In this document: piece by piece, positions 18,759 through 32,016 of the stretch
Layout: each line of letters starts with the position of its first letter
How positions within the stretch are numbered: the first letter of the stretch is position 1
Origin: Catenovulum agarivorans DS-2
GTDB lineage: Bacteria; Pseudomonadota; Gammaproteobacteria; Enterobacterales; Alteromonadaceae
Assembly (NCBI RefSeq): GCF_000568405.1
Contig: NZ_ARZY01000028.1
Span: 1 to 63,292, forward strand
Direction: 5' to 3'
Length of the DNA: 63,292 bases
Position numbers and translations under genes: made by a program
Notes under the pieces: model-generated
Told to the model about the DNA's origin: nothing
Seen by the model: the letters and a program-made list of their open reading frames with translations, nothing else
The model's database searches: none

Positions 18759-19766
18759 ATGATGAATATTAAACAAGCGATTGAACGAGTGCCGGGCGGC
18801 ATGATGCTAGTTCCGCTTTTTATTGGTGCGGTGATCAACACGTTAGCACCTGACTCTGCTAATTATTTTGGCGGTTTTACTAAAGGTATTATGACTGGAA
18901 TTTTACCCATTTTGGCTGTTTGGTTTTTCTGCATTGGCGCAAGTATAGACTTACGCTCAACCGGCACTGTTATTCGCAAATCAGGTACTTTGGTTGTTAC
19001 AAAAATTGGTACAGCCTGGGTTGTTGCGTTGGTTGCAGCATCACTTTTGCCTGAGCATGGTATTCAAGCTGGCGTATTTGCTGGCTTATCAACGCTAGCA
19101 ATTGTTTCTGCTATGGATATGACTAATGGGGGTTTATACGCAAGTTTGATGGACCAATATGGTAGCAAAGAAGAATCTGGCGCATTTATCCTAATGTCGC
19201 TTGAATCTGGTCCTCTGATGACAATGTTAATTTTAGGTTCTGTGGGTGCGGCAAGCTTTGAAATCCATCACTTTGTTGGTGCAGTTTTGCCCTTTTTAGT
19301 TGGTTTTATCCTTGGTAACTTAGACATCAGTCTGCGAGAATTCTTTAGCAAAGCCAGTTCCGTTATGATCCCATTTGTCGGCTTTGCTTTGGGCAATACC
19401 ATTAATTTGACCGTAATTTTTGAAACGGGCTTACTTGGTATATTGTTGGGCTTAGCGGTAATTGTAATTACTGGTATCCCACTTATTTATGCAGATAAGT
19501 GGATTGGCAAAGGAAATGGCACAGCTGGTGTCGCTGCTTCTTCAACTGCGGGTGCGGCAATCGCTAATCCAGCCGCAATTGCGGCAATAGAGCCTAAGTT
19601 TGCAGTGGCAGCGCAAAGTGCCACCGCACTGATTGCAACCAGTGTGATAGTTACGTCTATTCTTGTTCCTATTATCACTGCTATGTACCATAAACGCTAC
19701 GCCAACACTACAATTGAAGCGCAATCAGAAACTGAACTAGCTATTCAACAATCCTCCGCTAGCTAA
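18759..19766 (+). CDS. kdgT: 2-keto-3-deoxygluconate permease
   Basis: 335-residue inner-membrane proton symporter of the KdgT family that imports 2-keto-3-deoxygluconate and related keto-deoxy acids, end products of uronate lyase action. The full length matches KdgT; about ten hydrophobic segments are visible, with [14 protein letters not shown] at the N-terminus, [15 protein letters not shown] in the middle and [19 protein letters not shown] near residue 260, all characteristic. AAGGTG before the first ATG is a good ribosome site. Its presence among lyases that generate unsaturated uronates makes metabolic sense. A GCTGTATGG/CCATACAGC hairpin follows at 19775-19809. Confidence 0.92.
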
Positions 19767-19990
19767 CCGCTTTTGCTGTATGGTGCTCATAAGGCGTGTT
19801 CCATACAGCTCATACCAGCGCCTAACTAAGATTTTCGTTTATATATAACTATATCGACACCAAACCACTCATAATTAATCACATTCATTCTTTTTATAAC
19901 ATAAATTATGCTGTATCTTTACCTTATATTATCGATTCTCAACAAATTAAAAGAAAAGTTGCATACGAATTAAGCAAATAGGAATACATT

Positions 19991-21457
19991 ATGCTCAATA
20001 GAAGAAACTTTATTATTGGCGGTGCTGGTCTAATGACGGCAGCTTGTGCAACCAAATTCGATTGGTTAACCGAGTTAAAAAAAGAATACCCGAATGTATT
20101 GATGCTGGTTTTGGATGACCTAAACAACTGGGTTGGCGCGTTAGGCGGACACCCAAATGCAAAAACCCCCAATATAGATAGGCTAGCCGCTCAAGGCACA
20201 ACTTTTACCAATGCTCATGCACCTGCGCCGTTATGTGGCCCATCACGTGCTAGCATTATGACAGGGTTAGCCCCCTCAACTACTGGCATTTACGGCCATG
20301 TGCATGACAATGATATAAAGTCAGCCAATGACAAGGCCGCCCAATCTATCTTCCTCAGTGAATATTTTAAACAACATGGTTATTACACAGCTGCGGTAGG
20401 CAAAGTATTTCACCAAGCGGTTGCAGATGGCAGCTTTGACGCTTTTGGCGGTCGGGTGCATTTATTTGGTCCTTATTCACCAACCCCACTTAAATGGGAC
20501 AAAAAAGGCACAAGTACCGACTGGGGTGCCTACCCAGAAAAAGACGAGCAAATGCCTGATTATGATTCAGCACAATGGCTCGTTGAGCAGTTAAAAATGA
20601 AACACGACAAACCGTTTTTTATGGCTGGCGGTTTTTTGCGCCCGCATGTCCCTTGGACTGTGCCACAAAAATGGTTTGATATGCATCCAATTGAAGACAT
20701 TCAATTACCACCTTATCTAAAAAATGATATGGATGACATACCTGAAATCGCCAAACGCATCACTGAATTTAAGATGATGCCAACCACTGAGTGGGCGATT
20801 GAAAACAACGAATGGAAGAACATAGTGCAAGCTTATTTAGCCAGTGTGTCTTTTGTTGATTCATGTGTTGGTATGGTTTTAGATGCATTAGAAAACAGTG
20901 AATATGCCAATAATACTGCAGTGGTATTATGGGGCGATCATGGTTACGACATCGGCGAGAAAAACCGTTTTGCAAAAATGGCATTATGGGAAACCTCTAC
21001 CCGTACGCCACTGATCATCAAGCCACCAAAATCACAAGGCAAACAAGTAAGTGCGCAACCAGTCAGCTTGTTAGATTTGTATCCAACTTTAATTAGCATG
21101 TGTGGTTTGCCTGCAAATCCGCAGCTTGAAGGCAGAGACATCACTCCACTTGTGGCTAAAGCAGATACACAATGGCAACACGCAGCGGTAACAACTTTTG
21201 GCCCAAATAACCATGCGGTTAAAACCGACAGATACCGTTACATTCGATATGAAGATGGCAGCGAAGAGCTTTACGATCATAAAACGGATCCAAACGAGTG
21301 GAAAAACCTCGCTAATCTTTCGCAGTATCAAACTATTAAACAAGACTTGCGTAAACATTTACCGAAAGAAAATGCACCTTGGTCACCTGTTTCTCAGTTT
21401 AGAAGTAATGATTACTTTAGAGCAATAACAGAAAAAGCCGTTGGTAAAACTTTGTAA
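19991..21457 (+). CDS. Sulfatase (S1 family, formylglycine type)
   Basis: 488 residues. The export signal has features of both Tat (NRRNFIIGG) and lipoprotein signals (TAAC at residue 19). The sulfatase signature is CGPSR, with Cys82 as the residue converted to formylglycine. LVLDDLNNWVGALGGHP supplies the first metal-binding Asp pair. LWGDHGYDIGEKNRF supplies the later metal ligands. The overall plan resembles iduronate-2-sulfatase-like S1_7 enzymes, which occur in ulvan clusters, so removal of sulfate from ulvan rhamnose or uronate is likely (inference). A separate maturase is needed and is not in this window. Confidence 0.9.
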   Translation: MLNRRNFIIGGAGLMTAACATKFDWLTELKKEYPNVLMLVLDDLNNWVGALGGHPNAKTPNIDRLAAQGTTFTNAHAPAPLCGPSRASIMTGLAPSTTGIYGHVHDNDIKSANDKAAQSIFLSEYFKQHGYYTAAVGKVFHQAVADGSFDAFGGRVHLFGPYSPTPLKWDKKGTSTDWGAYPEKDEQMPDYDSAQWLVEQLKMKHDKPFFMAGGFLRPHVPWTVPQKWFDMHPIEDIQLPPYLKNDMDDIPEIAKRITEFKMMPTTEWAIENNEWKNIVQAYLASVSFVDSCVGMVLDALENSEYANNTAVVLWGDHGYDIGEKNRFAKMALWETSTRTPLIIKPPKSQGKQVSAQPVSLLDLYPTLISMCGLPANPQLEGRDITPLVAKADTQWQHAAVTTFGPNNHAVKTDRYRYIRYEDGSEELYDHKTDPNEWKNLANLSQYQTIKQDLRKHLPKENAPWSPVSQFRSNDYFRAITEKAVGKTL

Positions 21458-21529: not shown

Positions 21530-23746
21530 TTATTCCACAGCACAAGCTGAGCGTGTGCACAATAAAGCCACACCAAGCACGTCATAATTATTCACGACAC
21601 CATCGTTGTTAAAGTCGTAGGCTAGATCTGTGATACTGGCATTTCTAACAGCTAGACTGAAAGCTCGAACGTCATTTCTGTCTACATCACCATCCTTATC
21701 CAAATCACCCAATAAAGGTTTTGCTGTTACTGTTAATAACATGCTAGCAGTTGTCTGCTCGCCTGCTTTGTCAGTCGCAACTGCGCTAAAAGTGTGTTGC
21801 CCAACTGGTAATCCTGTGGATTCTTGTGGATTTGGCGATTTTGCGTGTCCCCATACATACGGTGCAACAGACTCTTGACGAACCAAAGCACCATTGATGA
21901 AAAGCTTCACATTGGCAATTGACGAATAATTAAATGGGCTGGATGCGTTAATATCAAGCACTAGCTCAGGATACCCTTCAGTGACAGTGATAGCTGAAGA
22001 TGGAAAGCTAACTAGCGGTTTTAAATCGGCTTGGTCATGTACATTTACGGTCATAGTGGCTTCAGCAGTGCGTCCATCAGAATCAGTGGTAATTGCCTTA
22101 AAAATGTGGCTGCCTTTTGTTAAGCCTAGTAACTCGGTTCGCCCTCCATGTCCCCACTCGTAAGGCGCAACACCTTCCTTGCGAATAAAGTTGTCATTTA
22201 TATACAGCTCAACTTGAGTAACTTTTGCACCTGCCCCCGTAGCACTGGCCGCAATATCTAAATACAAGTTCTGGTAACCTACAACTAGATCCATACTTTC
22301 TTGTGGGAAGGTAACAACAGGATCTTGATTTGGCTGCTCTGGTGGCTCAATTGGCGTTGGATCAACTGGACCTATAGGACCAATAGATGGCAAAGGTTCT
22401 CCATCAGTTAAATCAAAAATGTAACTAAATAAATTTTGTGAATCGGTTTGCACAGTGCGATCTTCGGCAATCAATACCAGTCTGCCATTATCAATTCGTG
22501 CAATAGAATTGCCAAATTTATAAGGTGTTTGCAGGGTGAATTCTGCTTTATCGTCAATAGAACCGACAACTGTACTGCTAATAGTGATTAAACCAGATGA
22601 AGAAGCTGTCGCTCGATAAAGCTTATCCTCGTAGGGCAAACCCGCCAGTGTTTTACCTACATGCTTAGTGAAAGATTGCTCTCCCGCTTTACGAGAGTAT
22701 GTGTAGTGATAATCCGTGTTGGGGGTTCTCCCCCTGTAGGTTAGATGAATACCGCCGTCGTCACTGACCGAAATTCCAGGTCCAGAAGAAGAACCTGTGC
22801 CACCGGGCGTGGCAGGAAGATCAACTAAGAAAGGAGAATAATCTTGTATAGGTAGAGGGTGTTTTACCCCATTTAGGTCCTCCCATTCGTCTGTCATAGT
22901 TGGACCGGTTTTAGCCAGATAGACACCTTCGTTTAATATGCCATCAGGCTTTTTAGCAGCCCAGCGAACAGACCAAGTGTAATATACATCGCCATTGCCA
23001 AAAGCAGCTTTACCGTATGCGTAATTTCTATCTTTAACCTCAACATAGGGTAAACCCGATCCTCGAGTTACTTGTTTAGCACGTGTCCAGTTTTCACCGT
23101 TATACACATGAACCATCTCGTTACCACCCACAGCTGAGCCTTTACGATAATGTACAACTATGTCACCGTCTGCGTTTTCCACTAGAGTCGGGTAAGTTAT
23201 GCGTACGTTTTGTCCTTCGGCTAAATATTCTCTTTTGTTATGATAGTTTGTTACTTGTGAAAATAGTTCATCAGAAGCAAAAGCAAGGTTCTTTTTCGAA
23301 ACTATATAGTTGAGCGGGTCGTTATGATGATCGAAAAGCATGTGAATAGTGCCATCTTTTTCACTAACGCTCACCGCTATTGTTCTGTGTGAATCACCCC
23401 AATTTGTATTTTCAATAAACGTGTTTTTGTGTGGAAATTCTACGCTGACCCATTCGCCACTGCCTATTCGTTTGCGCGACAACATGAGTTTTCGGTTATT
23501 CATGCCACCTTTGAACCAGCCAAAGTATGCAAAACCATTAACTACGGTTAAACAATCACCACGAGGGCTAATATTGGCCGCATAATGATATGCTTTATTG
23601 CCATTTGGATACCAAAAATACAAGCCTTGGTCAGTAATTTGAGCCTCTTCTATCAAGCTGACTGCTGCAAGTGACTGATTTGAGAAAGCTAAAGCGGCAA
23701 GTGCTGTTGAGAGGGTTAAAGCGGAGGGTTTGAGATAACGATTCAT
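21530..23746 (-). CDS. Ulvan lyase, PL25-type, with two Ig-like repeats and a C-terminal dockerin
   Basis: 738 residues, secreted (signal about 1-27, ending LAA). The catalytic domain (about 30-470) is a BNR-type beta-propeller. His120 in GDSHRTIAV and His140 in FDHHNDPLNY are 20 residues apart, the same spacing I recall for the catalytic pair His123/His143 of the PL25 enzyme PLSV_3936. It cleaves ulvan by beta-elimination. Two Ig-like repeats follow (about 474-570, 577-675). The tail (about 679-738) is a type I dockerin: calcium loops DLDKDGDVDRND and DFNNDGVVNNYD, each with the full DxD/NxDGxxxxxD pattern, then a Cys pair (LCTRSACAVE). A cohesin-like protein is encoded next door. Confidence 0.85.
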   Translation of the reverse strand: MNRYLKPSALTLSTALAALAFSNQSLAAVSLIEEAQITDQGLYFWYPNGNKAYHYAANISPRGDCLTVVNGFAYFGWFKGGMNNRKLMLSRKRIGSGEWVSVEFPHKNTFIENTNWGDSHRTIAVSVSEKDGTIHMLFDHHNDPLNYIVSKKNLAFASDELFSQVTNYHNKREYLAEGQNVRITYPTLVENADGDIVVHYRKGSAVGGNEMVHVYNGENWTRAKQVTRGSGLPYVEVKDRNYAYGKAAFGNGDVYYTWSVRWAAKKPDGILNEGVYLAKTGPTMTDEWEDLNGVKHPLPIQDYSPFLVDLPATPGGTGSSSGPGISVSDDGGIHLTYRGRTPNTDYHYTYSRKAGEQSFTKHVGKTLAGLPYEDKLYRATASSSGLITISSTVVGSIDDKAEFTLQTPYKFGNSIARIDNGRLVLIAEDRTVQTDSQNLFSYIFDLTDGEPLPSIGPIGPVDPTPIEPPEQPNQDPVVTFPQESMDLVVGYQNLYLDIAASATGAGAKVTQVELYINDNFIRKEGVAPYEWGHGGRTELLGLTKGSHIFKAITTDSDGRTAEATMTVNVHDQADLKPLVSFPSSAITVTEGYPELVLDINASSPFNYSSIANVKLFINGALVRQESVAPYVWGHAKSPNPQESTGLPVGQHTFSAVATDKAGEQTTASMLLTVTAKPLLGDLDKDGDVDRNDVRAFSLAVRNASITDLAYDFNNDGVVNNYDVLGVALLCTRSACAVE

Positions 23747-23820
23747 ATCCTTAGTTTCCTTGTTTTTGATATTCCTATTAAAACGATACAGCCCTATTCT
23801 TTTAATAGATTGATAAAATA

Positions 23821-23850
23821 AAGGCCGTGAAACCTAAGTTGCACGGCCTT
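23821..23850 (-). terminator. Terminator after the cohesin-like PEP-CTERM gene
   Basis: Stem AAGGCCGTG / CACGGCCTT with a 12-base loop, followed on the minus strand by a T-rich stretch. It closes the transcript that contains the cohesin-like gene, so the PL25 gene beyond it probably has its own promoter. Confidence 0.75.
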
Positions 23851-23875
23851 GAGTTCAGTGAGTAACTTGCACCAA

Positions 23876-24409
23876 TTAAGCTTGTTGGCGTTTACGCATA
23901 AATAACAAGCCTGCAATTAATGGCAGCAAAGCAAATGTTGCTGGCTCAGGTACTGAAACCTGATATTGAGCAGGAGAAATTTCCATAAAGTTGATGTCTG
24001 TAACATAAGAGTCAACTACTGAAAAAGTTGGGCTGAGTGTATTAGCAAGTGCCTCAAATTGAACTTCACCTAATTTAAATGAAGTACCTAACACATCAGC
24101 AAATCCGTCAAGAAAACCAACATTCATAAACAATACATCTGTATCTACTAAATAAGCATCACCAAACGCACCATATCCCGCAACTTCAAATGAATCTAGC
24201 CAACTAAAGTCAACAAATGCGAATTGGCTGTCGTCGAAAGCAAATTCGAACTGCAACCAATCAATGGTTGGGTTGGCATCTTCAACAAAAAACTCGACCG
24301 TAATAAAATCTCCTGAGTTGTAATCTGTCTGATCCGCTTGGGTGGTAATTAAACCAGCTGATGCGTTAAACGCTAGCGCCAGCGAAAATATCATTGCTAA
24401 AAATTTCAT
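23876..24409 (-). CDS. Secreted cohesin-like domain with PEP-CTERM sorting tail
   Basis: 177 residues: signal peptide about 1-19 (ending ASAG), a beta-sandwich body about 20-145, and a PEP-CTERM tail (VPEPATFALL, hydrophobic stretch, then RKRQQ). The body reads like a cohesin: a YNSGDFITVEFFV opening (GDxxxVxxxV strand), LQFEFAFDDSQFAFVDF (FxxxYDxxxLxxV) and a late GEVQFEAL strand. It lies exactly between two lyase genes whose products end in dockerins, and follows the PL24 gene by 62 bases, so the two are probably co-transcribed. A cohesin anchored through the exosortase route would hold the lyases at the cell surface. Cohesin assignment is by eye and is the point to test. Confidence 0.65.
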   Translation of the reverse strand: MKFLAMIFSLALAFNASAGLITTQADQTDYNSGDFITVEFFVEDANPTIDWLQFEFAFDDSQFAFVDFSWLDSFEVAGYGAFGDAYLVDTDVLFMNVGFLDGFADVLGTSFKLGEVQFEALANTLSPTFSVVDSYVTDINFMEISPAQYQVSVPEPATFALLPLIAGLLFMRKRQQA

Positions 24410-24471
24410 AACTTAAATTCCTAAGTAGTTATGTGCGCTGCATTTACAACGCACACTATTAGTTTAAATAT

Positions 24472-27400
24472 TTATTGTGCTGAACAACGAGCACGTGAAC
24501 ATAAACGAGCCATGCCATTCATATCACGCATGTTTAACTGACCGTCATTGTTAAAGTCGTAACGTAAATCAGTAATTTCACCAGCACGTAACGCTGCGTT
24601 AAATTGGCGCATATCGAGTCTGTCAACATCACCGTCTTGGTCTAAATCTCCAAATAGCGCAATATCCACAACAACCGTTGCTTCACTCATTTTGTTATTG
24701 CTGTCGGTCGCAACTGCTTTAAATTCATGCGTGCCTGCAGGTAAGTCTAATAATTCACTTTCATAGCCTTGACCACCCCATACAAACGGCGCTTCAAATA
24801 CTTCGCGAACTAACTCATCGTTAATGTATAAAATAACGCTCACGACACTAATGTCGTTGCTGGCGGTTTCAACTTGTGCAGAAACTGATAGCTCAGAGTA
24901 GCTGGTTAGTAGCTCGATATCTGACTCAACAAAATTAACTGTTGGAGCAGGCAACTCTAAAACAACCAAAGTCATATCTGCTGAGCTTTCTAAACCTTCA
25001 TTGTCTCTGGCAACAACAGTAAATGTGTGTTCGCCAGCACCTAATGGATTTGGATTTGGCTCATGTCTGTCTAACCAACCCATGGCACCAAATTCATATG
25101 GTGCATACGAATGACCGAAATTCCAGATTGGTCGAGTGTCTACTCGCACTAACTCGCCATTTCGATATAAGGTAACTGACTCAATTGTACGACCTTCAAC
25201 TGGTGATTCAGCTTGTACAGTGATAGCTAATTTTTCGTAACCTTCGTAAACAGTGACCACTTCATTTGGCCATGTAACCACAGGTGGTTTTGGTGGACCT
25301 TTCACTGTTAAGGTCATAGTGGCTTCGCTCATCTCGCCTTCACTATCAACAGCAACAGCGGTAAAGGTATGAACGCCTTCAGTTAAAGGGTTTAGATTGG
25401 GCTGATGGCATGGGCTTGGAACAGGATCTTGCTCACAGCTAATCCAACCCATAGCGCCTGTTTCATGCGCTTTGAATTTATGCCCAAAGTTAAATGGAAC
25501 TGAAGTATCCTGACGAACCAATTCACCATTCAAATATAAAGTTACTGAGTCAATTGTTCTGTCTGCTACAGGGCTTGACGCACTAATAGTAAAACCTAGT
25601 TGCTCGTAACCTTCATCTACCGTCAGCTCTGTATTAGGAAACGATACTTCAGGCGCTGTAGATGTAACCGTTAGTAATATAGTGGCGGTTGATGTGTCTC
25701 CTTCACTATCCACAGCTACAGCTTTAAAAACATGTTGGCCAGCAGGCAATGGGTTCGGGTTTGGTGAGTGTGTGTCTAACCATCCCATAGCACCCGTTTC
25801 GTGTGGCTTTGAACCATGGCCAAACAAATAAGGAACAGAATCGTCTGTACGAACCAACTCATCATTAATATATAAGGTAACCGACTCTATGGTGCGGTCT
25901 TCAACAGGGCTAGTTGCAGAAACTGTCAGTGAAAGCTTTTCGTAACCTTGCTCTACCGTCATATAAGAAGATGGGAAGGATACTTGAGGTGCATTTGCCT
26001 CACTGGCTAAATCTAAATCGATAATTTGCAAATGCAATGGCATTGCTGTACCTGTACCTTTTTCCATTAGGTAGTAATAAACTTTGCCATCGTGAACTTC
26101 AAGCACACCGTGGTCAAATTGCATGCCGTCAGTGTCTTCATAAATTCGAACAAAATCGTTTGTTCCACCTTTGGCGCGTTCAACAAAAGGTCGGCCATTG
26201 TTTAAACCGATAATATATACATTGTCACCTGCTGTATAAATTTCTGAAGCGCCTGAAAATTCGGTTGAGATAATAAAATCGTCAGCACCTGCAGGTTTGT
26301 ACGAGTGCAATTTCACATTCTGGTAATCGGCACGATTTCTATCAGTTGAGCGCACTTGGCTAATGATATGAATGTCACCTTTTGCTGTTACAGTCCAATC
26401 AAATCCACCAACAATATAAACTGAGTTAGCATCTTGATGGCCTGTAATATAATCACCTGGCTCAAATACTTTAATTTCGTCTGAATTCACCAATGGCCAA
26501 GTCATATCTTCGCCGCGGTGGTTTTTCCAAGCGCCAAATCCTTCAGGGTGATCTGAATACGCGTAATACACACCATTTTGGTATTTATATCTGTCGTTGT
26601 TATTGCTAGAACGTTGTTGGAAAGCAACACGCAATTTACCATTCACATACTTCATGTTGCCGTATAGGCCCCAGTTGTACGCATTGCCATGATTTTTTGC
26701 ACTAACCACATTAAACGCAGTAAATTTTGACCACTTTTGTGTTGCGGCGTCGTAACGATTAAATACGTAACCACCGTTATTATTCCCGCCCAAGCGCATG
26801 TACAACAATAATGTGCCATCCGTTGTGGTAAAAAATTTAGGGTAAGTTAAACGTGCAAAATTAGCTTTGTCGGCCAAATTGCCGGTCATGGTTAAATGTT
26901 TGTAGTCATCAGGTCCTTGGCTAACTGCGCTAGTGTCTTTTACAAATTGATCTAGCGTAAAATCGCTATCTGCAACTTCTGCTGCACCTGCAACCGAGTA
27001 TGAATAGCGAAAATAATCGTCTTTGAATTTGCCACCATGGTTGTTGTTGTCGTACGCGTGCATGTCGTAAACCATGTGGATGGTGCCATTAACTGGGCTA
27101 ATTGCTAGGCCAATGGTATTGTGTGACTCACCAATATTTGGGTCGCCCCTAAAACCTGTATGACGATGTGGAAACTCAATTGTTGCGACTTGGCCTGTTT
27201 GGGTGTTGTAACGAGACAACATCACATGGCGATCATCTTTACCACCGCGATACCAAGTCATAAAAACGTAGTGTTTGTAAACTTTTACCGCATCGCCATG
27301 AGCTGAAATATTACGACCAAAAAAGTAGTCAAACTTACTACCTGTATCGGCTGAACCGAGTGTACCATAGGTTAATTTTTTGCCGTCAAAGTGCAAACCA

Positions 27401-27531
27401 CTATCAGTGATTTTTGCTTGATCAACTAACGTGACGGCTGCCGAAGCTGGATTCAATGCCAACCCAGCAATGGAGGCTAGGGTAATTAAACACTTGCATC
27501 CAAAATTTTTATATTTTGTGTAATGTGCCAT
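24472..27531 (-). CDS. Ulvan lyase, PL24-type, with four Ig-like repeats and a C-terminal dockerin
   Basis: 1019 residues, secreted (signal about 1-31). The catalytic propeller (about 32-505) has His137 (GESHNTIGL) and His158 (VYDMHAYD), 21 apart, matching the His146/His167 pair I recall for the PL24 enzyme LOR_107; it cleaves ulvan by beta-elimination. Four Ig-like repeats follow (about 512-622, 623-745, 747-855, 855-955). The first three contain an insert with GAMGW. The tail (about 957-1019) is a dockerin with loops [12 protein letters not shown] and [12 protein letters not shown] and a Cys pair ([10 protein letters not shown]). The neighbouring downstream gene encodes a cohesin-like protein. 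The catalytic domain is nearly the same as that of the PL24 gene at 29.9 kb. Confidence 0.88.
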
Positions 27532-27626: not shown

Positions 27627-27805
27627 ACAAAAATAAATAATAAATTAACAACAATCAATAAAACAACAAATAACCACCAATTTTATTCACATTTTATCAT
27701 TTAGTTAACATGTGAACATAAATGCTGATATCTAGCGCTTTGATTTGGCGTTTTTAAGACAGGAAATATCAAGTAGGGTGAGGCTTACGCCTCATCCCTC
27801 TCACA

Positions 27806-27836
27806 GAACCGTACGTACGGATCTCGTATACGGCTC
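27806..27836 (-). ncRNA. Group II intron domain V
   Basis: On the minus strand GAGCCGTA pairs with TACGGTTC as the lower stem, a CG bulge separates it from the upper TACG/CGTA stem, and the loop is AGATC. The AGC catalytic triad is in the first arm. Domain VI follows immediately (stem TGAGGC/GCCTCA, loop GTAA, with an unpaired A). This is the catalytic core of the ribozyme. Confidence 0.85.
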
Positions 27837-27845
27837 ATGTATTCT

Positions 27846-29114
27846 TCACATACCTTTCGGTACAAGCTTGCCCGTATTAACTTCGGATAATTCGAACAAT
27901 CCCATTTCTTTAAACCATTGGTTTGGCATCGCTAAATTTGACAGTGGACTCAATGAGTTGCGCCACGAGTTCATTTTGATAAATTTGAACGGTGGTTTAT
28001 ACCCGCTTTGTTTGAGTTTTCTGTGTAGTTTAGCTGGCTTCTTCCATTGTTTAAGTTGAATTGCTCTTAATCGTCGTCTTATCCAACCTGCTAACCTCTT
28101 AAACTCCCTGCTGCAATTCGCTATTCTAAAATAATTCGCAAATCCTCTAACGACCGGATTCAATTGTTTTATCACCGCCGTTAAGTTTTGACCTTGATTG
28201 CGTCTGGTCAACTTTTTCACCTTGGTTTTAAATCCTTGGAGTTTCTTTTCTTGTATCCGTGTAAATTGGCTACCGATTTCTACTCCCAGAAACTTGATGC
28301 CTTCACTGCTATGAGCTATATGCGTTTTGTTTCTGTTAACCGTTAGTTTCAGTGCGTTTTCTAGAATGTCTGTGGCTTTGGTTAATGCGTTTTCTGCACC
28401 TGTCTTGCTGTTGCACAATATCAAGATATCATCTGCGTATCTCACGATTCTGTGATTGCGCTTTTTCATTTCTTGGTCAAATGCGTCTAGGTAGATGTTC
28501 GCAAGCAGAGGGCTGATGACGCCACCTTGCGGACTGCCTAGTTCACTTGGCTGCCAGTTGCAATTTTCCATTATGCCACTTGTTAGAAATTGCTTTATTA
28601 GCTGCAATATACTGCTGTCTGTTACTCTGCGCTTGACGCTTGTTATGATTAACTCATGGTCAAGTCGGTCAAAGCATTTTGACAAGTCCATGTCTACAAC
28701 CCATTGTCTTCGATATTCTCTTATGAATAACGTTGCTTTGTTGATTGCATCATGGCTGCTTCTATTTGGCCTATATCCATAACTGGATGGATGAAATTCT
28801 GGCTCAAATATCGGCTCTAGCATTTCCTTTATTGCTTGTTGGACAATTCGGTCTCGAACTGCAGGTATGCCTAATAACCGTGTTCCGCCATCGTCTTTTG
28901 GGATTTCCACCCGTCTGACTGGTTGTGGTTGGTAGGTTTTATTTTGCAATTCACTTAGCAATTGATGTAAGTTTTCTTCCAAATTTTGTGCATAGTCACT
29001 CAGGCTCTGCCCATCTATTCCGGCCGCGCCTTTGTTTCTTTTCACTTGTTTGAATGCTTTATGGAGCACTTTTATATCCAGTAGCCGACCATATAAGCTG
29101 TAGTACACTTTCAT
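27846..29114 (-). CDS. ltrA: Group II intron reverse transcriptase/maturase
   Basis: 422 residues. Reverse transcriptase blocks are evident: KGAAGIDG near the start, PKDDGGTRLLGIPAVRDR, FHPSSYGYRPNRS, VVDMDLSKCFDRLDH, GSPQGGVISPLLANI, and the catalytic YADD at residues 226-229. The C-terminal half has the maturase (X) region with NPVVRGFANYFR and RRLRAIQLKQW. I see no HNH endonuclease motif at the end, so retrohoming probably uses an endonuclease-independent route. The protein appears intact. Needed for splicing and mobility of the surrounding intron. Confidence 0.95.
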   Translation of the reverse strand: MKVYYSLYGRLLDIKVLHKAFKQVKRNKGAAGIDGQSLSDYAQNLEENLHQLLSELQNKTYQPQPVRRVEIPKDDGGTRLLGIPAVRDRIVQQAIKEMLEPIFEPEFHPSSYGYRPNRSSHDAINKATLFIREYRRQWVVDMDLSKCFDRLDHELIITSVKRRVTDSSILQLIKQFLTSGIMENCNWQPSELGSPQGGVISPLLANIYLDAFDQEMKKRNHRIVRYADDILILCNSKTGAENALTKATDILENALKLTVNRNKTHIAHSSEGIKFLGVEIGSQFTRIQEKKLQGFKTKVKKLTRRNQGQNLTAVIKQLNPVVRGFANYFRIANCSREFKRLAGWIRRRLRAIQLKQWKKPAKLHRKLKQSGYKPPFKFIKMNSWRNSLSPLSNLAMPNQWFKEMGLFELSEVNTGKLVPKGM

Positions 29115-29851
29115 CTTTTGCCTTTGCTTGTGGCATCTTCAATCACTTTGTTTTCGACAGTGCTGACGCTTCTTGGTTACTTCAGGTGTGCTAGCCTTTT
29201 TGGCAATCTGCCTGAGCGGTTTCCAATACTCCTCGTTCAACCCAGTAAACCAGTTACATTATTCCTAATTCACCAGTTTGTGGTGTCTGCCTTCGTCAAG
29301 GCACTTGTGAACCACTGTAAAAAAAATCGTGCTTGTTGATGCACTTAAAGAATACTTCCCCCCTTCGCCATTTATTGCACTTTTGGTGGCAATAAATGCC
29401 ATCAAACTTGTTGATGGTCACCTTGGTTTTATCCTCCACACCATTACTGGCTTTCATCGGCCTAGGTTTATTCACTACTACGGGTTCATCTGCCACCTCA
29501 CATTCATCATTACCTTGAGTCACCTCTTGTATAATGATGTCCAGTAAAAAAAACTGGAGCTAATGCCAGGCTTCCCCAGTTACTGCACTGACGCCCTGTT
29601 AACAATGCCACCCTCAAACACGCCTTAGGTTTGATTGAGTATTGGGCTTTGCGCTATTTTGCACGCTTACCCACCTAAACCGCCGAGTCAGGTTCACTTA
29701 CGTTGTGTACCGTTAACTTCCTATCGCTTCCTTCAGACCCAGTCGTTGGCCAACTACGCCCTTGCGATTCGGATTATCTTCCCCTCAATCAGGGTGATTC
29801 AGATTTCTTTCAATCTGACGGGTTTGCCAGCTTCGCTGGGCAAACAAAAAT

Positions 29852-29910: not shown

Positions 29911-32016
29911 TCAATACGCTCTTACTTTAATAAATTGACAAGAGTTAGTAGACGTCAATTTTAACAATGTACCTGTAAAATCAGACTCTTGTTTATAATT
30001 AGCGTTAATATTTAAACTACCACTGCCATCAACAGAGCTAATTGTACCTCTAAAGTCACAGCTGCTATTGGCGTCACTGTCCCAAAATTGTACGGTTTCA
30101 CCTGATAAATTGCGGTTAAACTCAATGCATGGGCTGGCGCCAGATAATGTCACTTCGGTACGGGCATCCCAAGGGATCGTAGTTGTCGAGCTACAACCAT
30201 TCGCTGGAGCTGTAACCACTAAATCCATTGTTGCTTGACCCTCAATACCAGCAGAGTCTGTCGCAATTGCAGTAAAGGTGTGATTGCCTGCTGATAAACC
30301 TAATAATTCGTTTGGTTTGTTTTTATGCCCCCAAACAAATGGGTCAGCAGAGTCAGTGCGAATAAAATTACCATCAACGTATAAATCGACTCTATCAATT
30401 GAGCGACCCGACACTGGGCTTTGTGCAGTTACTTTAAAAGATAATTGCTCGTAACCTTCTTCAACTTGCATAGAAGATAGTGGGAAGGCAACATCTGGAG
30501 CAGTTTGGTCAGCCAATCCTAAATCGATAATTTGCAAATGTAATGGTAAAGAGCTGCCTGAGCCGCGCTCCATTAAATAGTAATAAACTTTGCCGTTTTC
30601 TATTTCAATAGTGCCATGGTCAAACAAAATACTATTGTCCGCTTCATACACACGCACAAAATTATTAGTGCCACCTTTTGCTTTTTCAACATAAGGTTTG
30701 CCACCATTTAAGCCAATAATGTAAATATTATCGCCCGCGGTATATATTGCCTCTGCACCAGAAAATTCAGTTGTGACAGTAAATTTGCTAGCACCAGCAG
30801 GTTTGTATGAATGCAACATAACTTCTTCGTAGTCAGGGCGATTTCTATCAGTAGAACGTACTTTACTGATCATATGAATATCGCCTTTGGCCGTTACCGT
30901 CCAATCAAAACCACCTACTATGTAAATAGAGTTTGCTTCAGTATGCGAAATATAATCACCTGGCTCGAATACTTTAATTTCATCCGAGTTCACTAGTGGC
31001 CATGTCATTGGCTGACCTTTGTGATTTTTCCACTGGCCAAAACCTTCTGGATGATTTGAGTAGGCGTAATACACACCATTTTGATATTTATATTTGTCGG
31101 TAGCGATGCTGCTGCGTTGTTGGAAACCAACTCTAAGTTTACCGTTAACGTATTTCATGTTGCCGTACAAACCCCAATTGTAGGCATTACCGTGGTTTTT
31201 AGCTGAAACAACGTTGAATGCGGTAAATTTAGACCACTTTTGCGTTGCCGCATCGTAACGGTTAAAAACGTAACCACCGTTATTATTGCCACCTAAACGC
31301 ATGTACAACAACAAAGTGCCATCGGTTGTTTTGAAAAATTTTGGATAAGTTAAACGTGCAAAGTTGCCTTTATCAGCCAAATTGCCAGTCATGGTTAAAT
31401 GTTTGTAGTCGTTACTACCTTGGCTTATAGAACTTGTGTCTTTTACAAATTTGTTTAACTTGAAGTTTGAATCACTCACATCAGCTGCGCCAGGCACAGA
31501 ATACGAGTAGCGGAAATAGTCATCTTTAAACTTGCCACCATGGTTACTATTATCATACGCATGCATGTCGTAAACCATATGGATGGTGCCGTTGATTGGG
31601 CTAATGGCTAAGCCGATAGTATTATGCGATTCGCCCACTAATGGATTACCTCTAAACCCAGTGTGTTGGTGAGGAAATTCAATAGTTGCAATGCTACCAG
31701 TTTTAGTATTGTAGCGTGACAACATAACGTGTCGGTCGTACTTGCCTCCGCGGTACCAAGTCATAAATACATAGTGTTTATAAACTTTTACCGCATCACC
31801 ATGAGCTGAAATACTGCGGCCAAAAAAGTAGTCGTATTTTGAACCCGTATCTGGGTTGCCTACGTTACCATAGTTAAGATCATCACCATCAAAGTGCAAG
31901 CCTTTGTTGGTTATTTTAACTTGAGTTTCGAGGGTAACTTGAGCTGATGCTGGTGATATAGACAAACCCAGCATTGCCCCAAGCAAAGCTAGAGTTTTTA
32001 GTTTAACGATTTTCAT
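29911..32016 (-). CDS. Ulvan lyase, PL24-type, with one Ig-like repeat and a distinct C-terminal domain
   Basis: 701 residues, secreted (signal about 1-25, ending ASA). The catalytic propeller (about 26-500) is a close paralogue of the one at 24.5 kb, with His131 (GESHNTIGL) and His152 (VYDMHAYD). One Ig-like repeat follows (about 504-600) without the GAMGW insert. Instead of a dockerin the last ~95 residues form a small Cys-containing beta-rich domain (CSSTTTIPW ... CQFIKVRAY), probably carbohydrate-binding. So this copy should diffuse or bind substrate itself, whereas its sister may be scaffolded. It has its own terminator and an upstream box shared with the sister gene. Confidence 0.88.

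Follow-up and report, generated by a model that had tools for sequence, protein, structure and literature searches.

Protein X of Catenovulum agarivorans DS-2, a candidate exosortase-sorted cohesin encoded beside dockerin-bearing enzymes

The stretch of DNA analysed here (63,292 nucleotides, hereafter the window) is contig 28 of the 4.57 Mb draft genome of Catenovulum agarivorans DS-2. Its minus strand encodes, in this order, a 1019-residue ulvan lyase of the PL24 type, a 177-residue protein which we designate X, and a lyase-like enzyme of 738 residues. According to the list of open reading frames (ORFs), 62 bases separate the first gene from that of X, in agreement with a preliminary description of this DNA, and 129 bases separate X from the third gene. 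We consider it likely that X is an anchoring cohesin which tethers the dockerin-bearing enzymes of its locus, and that this locus is one case of a device spread over the Alteromonadaceae. The evidence computed for this reading comprises the domain make-up of the proteins, the predicted fold of X, the pairing and co-inheritance of X and dockerin genes and the co-occurrence of X with an exosortase.

Protein X and the dockerins of its neighbours

The cohesin-like nature of X emerges from its family. A profile made from 26 relatives matches cohesins of the PDB (best E 1.1e-7), and a profile of 102 relatives (the 105 X sequences considered below minus three with uncertain starts) yields 31 PDB matches at E<=0.01, 29 of which are cohesins or NagJ cohesin-like modules (best E 1.2e-17), identified as such by name or by the titles of Foldseek entries and, in the case of 2ozn, by likeness to 2o4e. 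The remaining two are 7urp ('Ribonucleases G and E'), which is of unplaced kind, and an antibody chain at E 0.009. When relatives are searched singly, PF00963 is found in 9/26 at the lax threshold of E<=10 (best 3.6e-6) and in 42/102 at E<=0.01. An AlphaFold model of X based on nine sequences has a predicted local distance difference test score (pLDDT) of 80 overall, the blocks within residues 21-150 ranging from 82 to 94 except for residues 71-80 with 53. All 50 Foldseek matches listed for this model are cohesins, cellulosome scaffolds or cohesin-like (NagJ-type) structures, among them OlpA and OlpC, with 5k39_A as the best (E 1.2e-6). Judged by the predicted model, the body of X has the beta-sandwich fold of cohesins. 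The cohesin-like body which had been read from the letters of X is thereby supported by a check set beforehand, for which the family profile and the Foldseek search were used. A weak PF00963 match elsewhere in the genome (G000:C38, E 0.1), located in a lipoprotein-like ORF without PEP-CTERM, was dropped as a probable chance match.

In all 105 relatives the length of X lies between 160 and 244 residues, which leaves room for one cohesin and makes X an anchor, not a scaffold by itself. Pfam tallies of the X proteins contain no family of carbohydrate-binding modules (CBMs) and, as far as its sequence tells, X would not qualify as a cellulosome-type scaffoldin, in which a single chain bears several cohesins and, as a rule, a CBM.

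At its C-terminus X carries the PEP-CTERM sorting tail proposed before, as TIGR02595 matches in the protein scan with 23.8 bits (cut-off 16); Pfam PEP-CTERM (PF07589) scores 15.2 bits and stays below its cut-off of 20.7. A hydrophobic, basic C-terminal tail is present in 105/105 X proteins and a PEP-like motif, defined by a loose pattern, in 94 of them. The genome of C. agarivorans DS-2 possesses one gene of the Exosortase_EpsH type (E 6e-62), and X is presumably processed and attached by this kind of enzyme. Most substrates of PEP-CTERM/exosortase systems are not known to have a function. Eight PEP-CTERM matches occur in the genome, and the six which remain besides two X-type genes lack a Pfam-detected dockerin neighbour.

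Both enzymes flanking X end in dockerins with paired calcium loops, exactly as spelled out in the preliminary description. The two F-hand calcium loops characteristic of PF00404, located at the protein end, can be read directly in either sequence. In the protein scan Pfam Dockerin_1 scores 21.5 and 17.9 bits for the two enzymes, below the cut-off of 22.9; in the whole-genome search the values are 26.9 bits and 22.5 bits (23.1 with neighbours), reported as over cut-off. For the modelled dockerin of the PL24 enzyme (pLDDT 81) the two best Foldseek matches are dockerins (probability 0.98) at weak E values of 0.14 and 0.26, followed by calmodulin-type proteins from rank 3 onwards. Both dockerins additionally possess a two-cysteine C-terminal tail which had gone unmentioned before and which recurs in 95/108 X-paired dockerins of family loci. 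The custom dockerin hidden Markov model used in the locus work was seeded with the three dockerins of this genome and grown on fetched loci, and is hence tuned to this subtype; since the PL24 dockerin is one of its seeds, the score of this dockerin there is no independent test. The cysteine tail is missing from a second dockerin subtype, whose paired X proteins are more divergent (L095, L096, L098, L103, L104, L114 and L128; L numbers denote loci, G numbers genomes); this suggests two cohesin-dockerin lineages in the family.

With respect to the catalytic parts, the preliminary description of two ulvan lyases, one each of PL24 and PL25, stands for the former only. The 1019-residue enzyme is closely related to PL24 lyases, with the short ulvan lyase 6byp found at E 5e-233 in the PDB search, and shows BNR_4 plus four Big_7 stretches in the Pfam scan. 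The 738-residue enzyme, which is 27% identical to this PL24 neighbour, contains BNR_4 (E 1e-28) and finds Uly1 and L-rhamnose-glucuronate lyase in the PDB. 5UAM, the PL25 structure according to the accessible text of PMC6431674, is absent from its 23 PDB matches at E<=1, and the label 'PL25' is therefore unsupported.

Pairing of X with dockerin genes

Using the X profile, 295 genomes of the family were searched and adjacency was scored on the best 150 matches of each listing. A listed Pfam dockerin lies within 1 kb of 72 of the best 150 X matches, in 72/72 cases upstream on the same strand, and inspection of the DNA of 41 of these 72 loci confirmed the dockerin in every one. Out of the other 78 matches 41, from 40 loci, were examined, and for 40 of these X genes the ORF next to them on the upstream side encodes a dockerin which had been missed by Pfam or ranked below the best matches listed; these 40 include a dockerin fragment of only 20 residues (L080) and a case of overlapping called ORFs (L061). 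Taken together, 112/113 examined X genes out of the best 150 adjoin a dockerin gene. The reverse direction is looser, as a listed X is located within 1 kb of 73 of the best 150 dockerins, and from the 77 without one 40 loci were examined, 17 of which contain a paired X-like gene. Eleven of the examined dockerin genes with the cysteine tail have no X paired with them downstream (L107, L108, L112, L116-L119, L121, L122, L125 and L126), with L112 showing an X-like gene upstream instead; these eleven dockerins may use an X encoded elsewhere in the genome.

At the level of whole genomes a Pfam dockerin is found in 89/104 genomes with X vs 42/191 others, and in C. agarivorans DS-2 itself 3/3 Pfam-detected dockerin genes adjoin one of the two X-type genes. 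An exosortase is present in 76/76 X genomes vs 74/120 others, as counted over 196 genomes (taken to be G000-G195) with X genomes being those in the best-150 list. Because the genomes are related, no P value is given here that would be free of shared ancestry. In the wider class X is rare and occurs in 20/369 genomes and the dockerin profile in 17/369, three of this family being included in either count. Outside the family the two lie close together in G631, where the dockerin precedes X, and in G594 and G358, where it follows X; other outside-family genomes contain X or dockerin without the other nearby.

Most examined loci consist of one enzyme and one X. The combination of PL24-dockerin enzyme and X is found again in loci of Catenovulum, Alteromonas, Paraglaciecola, Thalassotalea and Glaciecola and on the plasmids pAlt76 (Alteromonas sp. 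76-1) and pCadTS8_1 (C. adriaticum); the annotations of X on these plasmids read 'hypothetical protein' and 'PEP-CTERM sorting domain-containing protein'. Of the examined loci, a part of which extend only 1.5-2.4 kb past X, the trio including the 738-residue enzyme was encountered only in this genome and in C. agarivorans YM01, whose X is 91% identical. Conservation in relatives, which had been proposed as a check for the trio, is consequently found for the PL24-dockerin/X pair and hardly for the trio as such.

The enzymes paired with X are of many kinds. Sorted by best match, with exemplars typed by Pfam and NCBIfam, the 105 partners comprise 55 ExeM DNases, 13 PL24 lyases, nine M43 peptidases, seven porphyranases, which we take to be of the GH86 type, and four M9 collagenases, while seven belong to kinds represented once or twice (including GH98, GH141/CBM35 and M4) and ten are left unassigned. 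The prevalence of ExeM/NucH DNases permits a comparison within a single enzyme type. Among their 30 best matches in 147 genomes, inspected with 1.5 kb of flank in a set which overlaps the other sets, X adjoins 20/20 genes with a dockerin and 0/10 without, so that X follows the dockerin and not the enzyme. Likewise, the second PL24-like lyase of the window (29911-32016), for which Pfam at E<=10 reveals BNR_4 and Big_7 only and no dockerin, is without X. Some of the ten dockerin-less ExeM proteins end in a glycine/serine-hydrophobic-arginine tail, which by eye looks like GlyGly-CTERM, and others end differently; in the 30 ExeM DNases (L170-L199) the dockerin looks like one of several interchangeable C-termini. 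In L100 and L139 the dockerin beside X is part of an IgGFc-binding-type protein and a PASTA-repeat protein, not of plain hydrolases. In the M43-type peptidases of L068, L078, L143, L144, L149 and L150 the dockerin is internal and succeeded by PKD and PPC, with X still being the next gene downstream.

Similarity of X and dockerin was correlated over 105 pairs, i.e. the 108 available minus those with identical X proteins. The correlation between dockerin and X amounts to r 0.59, that between dockerin and its own catalytic part to 0.33, the scales (identity vs normalised BLAST score) not being like for like. Restricted to pairs with unrelated catalytic parts (3831/5460 comparisons), X and dockerin still correlate with r 0.43, a value reached by 0/2000 permutations.

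Proposed tethering and its alternatives

We envisage that the signal peptide would direct the export of X and the PEP-CTERM tail its sorting by the exosortase, leaving its single cohesin domain on display in the extracellular matrix or at the cell surface. Into this domain the dockerin of the PL24 ulvan lyase, whose gene immediately precedes that of X, and probably also the dockerin of the neighbouring 738-residue enzyme, would plug in a calcium-dependent manner. X would thereby keep the enzyme near the cell, with the dockerin replacing a sorting tail on the enzyme itself. The same device would serve many secreted hydrolases across the Alteromonadaceae, most often ExeM/NucH DNases. With somewhat less assurance than for the locus itself, we believe that a dockerin enzyme and an adjacent exosortase-sorted single cohesin probably form a general two-gene display device in this family and a few other Gammaproteobacteria, a module which travels among enzymes of unrelated kinds (DNases, collagenases, M43 peptidases, ulvan lyases, porphyranases) and replaces C-terminal sorting tails.

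Several results weigh against tethering by X. Single-sequence searches of X in Pfam, NCBIfam and the PDB return no cohesin, the profile of its close group of eleven members finds two cohesins at an E of only 0.1, and the fold matches of the model reach a template modelling score of about 0.5 at mostly 13-21% identity. In 23 out of the 40 examined loci of dockerins without a listed X, no paired X is present. The signal peptide of X, taken as a control for common descent, correlates with the dockerin as well (r 0.38 overall and 0.31 where the catalytic parts are unrelated), as does X with the catalytic part (r 0.44), and shared ancestry hence explains part of the correlation between X and dockerin. 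Covariation of residues between the two is not above a within-cluster shuffle, which reached the maximum in 31/40 and the top-50 mean in 3/40 cases. Moreover, the binding of dockerins by X, its calcium dependence, the sorting, surface attachment and final location of X and the benefit thereof are what we infer from the sequences.

Some of these points would suit an X which has the cohesin fold without binding dockerins, acting as a surface adhesin or CBM of the related fold while the dockerins bind something else. The cohesin fold is common to binding modules, X alone falls short of Pfam Cohesin, and the covariation does not exceed the shuffle. We nevertheless regard this explanation as unlikely, since it is the dockerin, not a substrate, that X accompanies, its partners being DNases, peptidases, lyases and glycosidases, and since within the ExeM DNases it is confined to those with a dockerin.

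Considerably less credit is due to a true multi-enzyme complex, the 'ulvanosome' of the preliminary description, in which several dockerin enzymes would assemble on X, e.g. via X oligomers or clustering. Two dockerin enzymes do flank one X in the window, and in C. agarivorans YM01 (L043) four dockerin genes, one of them cut by the end of the locus, share one stretch with two X genes. An X of the length observed in all 105 cases, however, has room for a single cohesin, a CBM family is missing from the X tallies, and most examined loci pair one enzyme with one X. Nor is the pairing confined to ulvan, as 55/105 partners are ExeM-type DNases and others are peptidases or other glycosidases, and the name is therefore too narrow.

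That X is an unrelated PEP-CTERM protein located downstream by chance is very unlikely: the six further PEP-CTERM matches without a Pfam-detected dockerin neighbour indicate that such proteins have other roles too, but 112/113 examined X genes adjoin a dockerin gene across a wide range of unrelated enzymes, ExeM genes lacking the dockerin have no X next to them, and 76/76 X genomes contain an exosortase. As with the CBM reading, its low rank follows from X accompanying the dockerin and not the enzyme.

Locus layout and comparison with known systems

The features of the window are compiled in Table 1. The hairpin directly downstream of X (-18.2 kcal/mol, z -4.1, 0/200 shuffles equally stable) consists of 9 + 3 pairs with a U-rich 3' side. 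It was missed by a simple terminator scan, the limit of which is probably exceeded by its loop; the promoter/terminator scan returned sites no more numerous than in shuffles. Because this terminator-like hairpin separates X from the 738-residue enzyme gene, the PL24 gene and X look like one transcription unit and are presumably co-transcribed. The two PL24-type genes of the ulvan locus are separated by a group II intron, located downstream of the 29911-32016 lyase. The KdgT-type permease and the sulfatase next to the lyases are as expected of an ulvan utilisation locus.

Table 1. Positions of the features discussed, in coordinates of the window
Feature	Position	Strand	Content or basis
PL24-type ulvan lyase, 1019 aa	24472..27531	-	BNR_4 propeller, Big_7/Ig repeats, C-terminal dockerin; signal peptide by eye
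Dockerin of the PL24 enzyme	24481..24657	-	two Ca loops and LCSRARC tail; PF00404 E 2.9e-5 (genome search)
Protein X, 177 aa	23876..24409	-	signal peptide (by eye), one cohesin-like domain, PEP-CTERM tail
Cohesin-like body of X, approximately residues 19-145	23975..24355	-	AlphaFold and Foldseek
PEP-CTERM sorting signal of X	23882..23953	-	TIGR02595 E 3.7e-5 (genome search)
Terminator-like hairpin and U-rich stretch, directly 3' of X	23821..23850	-	RNA folding
Second BNR_4 lyase-like enzyme, 738 aa, C-terminal dockerin	21530..23746	-	BNR_4 E 1e-28
Dockerin of the 738-aa enzyme	21539..21715	-	DLDKDGDVDRND, DFNNDGVVNNYD, LCTRSAC tail; PF00404 E 6.6e-4 (genome search)
PL24-like lyase without dockerin and without X neighbour (internal contrast)	29911..32016	-	Pfam scan
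Group II intron, complete-looking	27768-29756	-	RT/maturase ORF 27846-29114, D1-D4 and domain V RNA matches
Second PEP-CTERM protein of the window, 301 aa	41427-42332	-	no Pfam match at 1e-4; no Pfam-detected dockerin neighbour
KdgT-type 2-keto-3-deoxygluconate permease and sulfatase flanking the lyases	18759-21457	+	see text

A search of the literature, which was thin in subscription journals, found no paper on an exosortase-sorted cohesin, nor on PEP-CTERM or an extracellular nuclease together with a dockerin. As far as the accessible texts go, literature combining cohesin, dockerin and Alteromonas concerns metagenome counts or engineered vesicles, and a word search of the accessible part of PMC6431674 found neither dockerin nor cohesin. 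If the proposal is true, X would be the first cohesin tied to an exosortase, and its pairing with enzymes would be the main use of cohesin and dockerin in a Gram-negative group. The role of non-cellulosomal cohesins in a large and well-studied group of marine bacteria would be accounted for, PEP-CTERM and exosortase would gain a concrete job in the tethering of enzymes, and it would become understandable how these bacteria cut seaweed polymers and extracellular DNA near the cell without losing the products. New Gram-negative cohesin-dockerin pairs would also become available for protein engineering.

Monovalent anchoring cohesins are represented by OlpA and OlpC of C. thermocellum and the sortase-anchored ScaE of Ruminococcus flavefaciens. 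Like these, X combines one cohesin with a surface-attachment module for a dockerin-bearing partner. OlpA, OlpC and ScaE, however, belong to Gram-positive bacteria, rely on SLH or an LPXTG sortase and operate within a larger scaffold system, whereas X is Gram-negative, carries PEP-CTERM and is encoded beside its partner enzyme, with no scaffoldin having been found. On the side of the enzymes, long-type ulvan lyases carry a 'type II dockerin repeat' (Kopel et al. 2016, as cited in PMC11101340). The PL24 enzyme of the window is of this type and its dockerin has been noted before, yet the account, in its accessible part, names no cohesin partner (PMC11101340). The 'Planctosome' proposed for freshwater Planctomycetes is likewise a cohesin-dockerin system beyond cellulose, described in silico and involving peptidases; it differs by a large multidomain anchor with lamin-tail domain plus an adaptor, and PEP-CTERM is unmentioned in the accessible text (PMC6461901). 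Non-cellulosomal cohesins of archaea, including anaerobic methanotrophic archaea (ANME), resemble X in occurring outside cellulosomes and in being partly suggested as surface anchors, whereas the accessible parts of these reports offer no such gene-pairing evidence and treat exosortase and cohesin apart (PMC5244752, PMC11452385). Compared with all of these, the device built around X consists of parts of known kinds in a combination which appears to be new.

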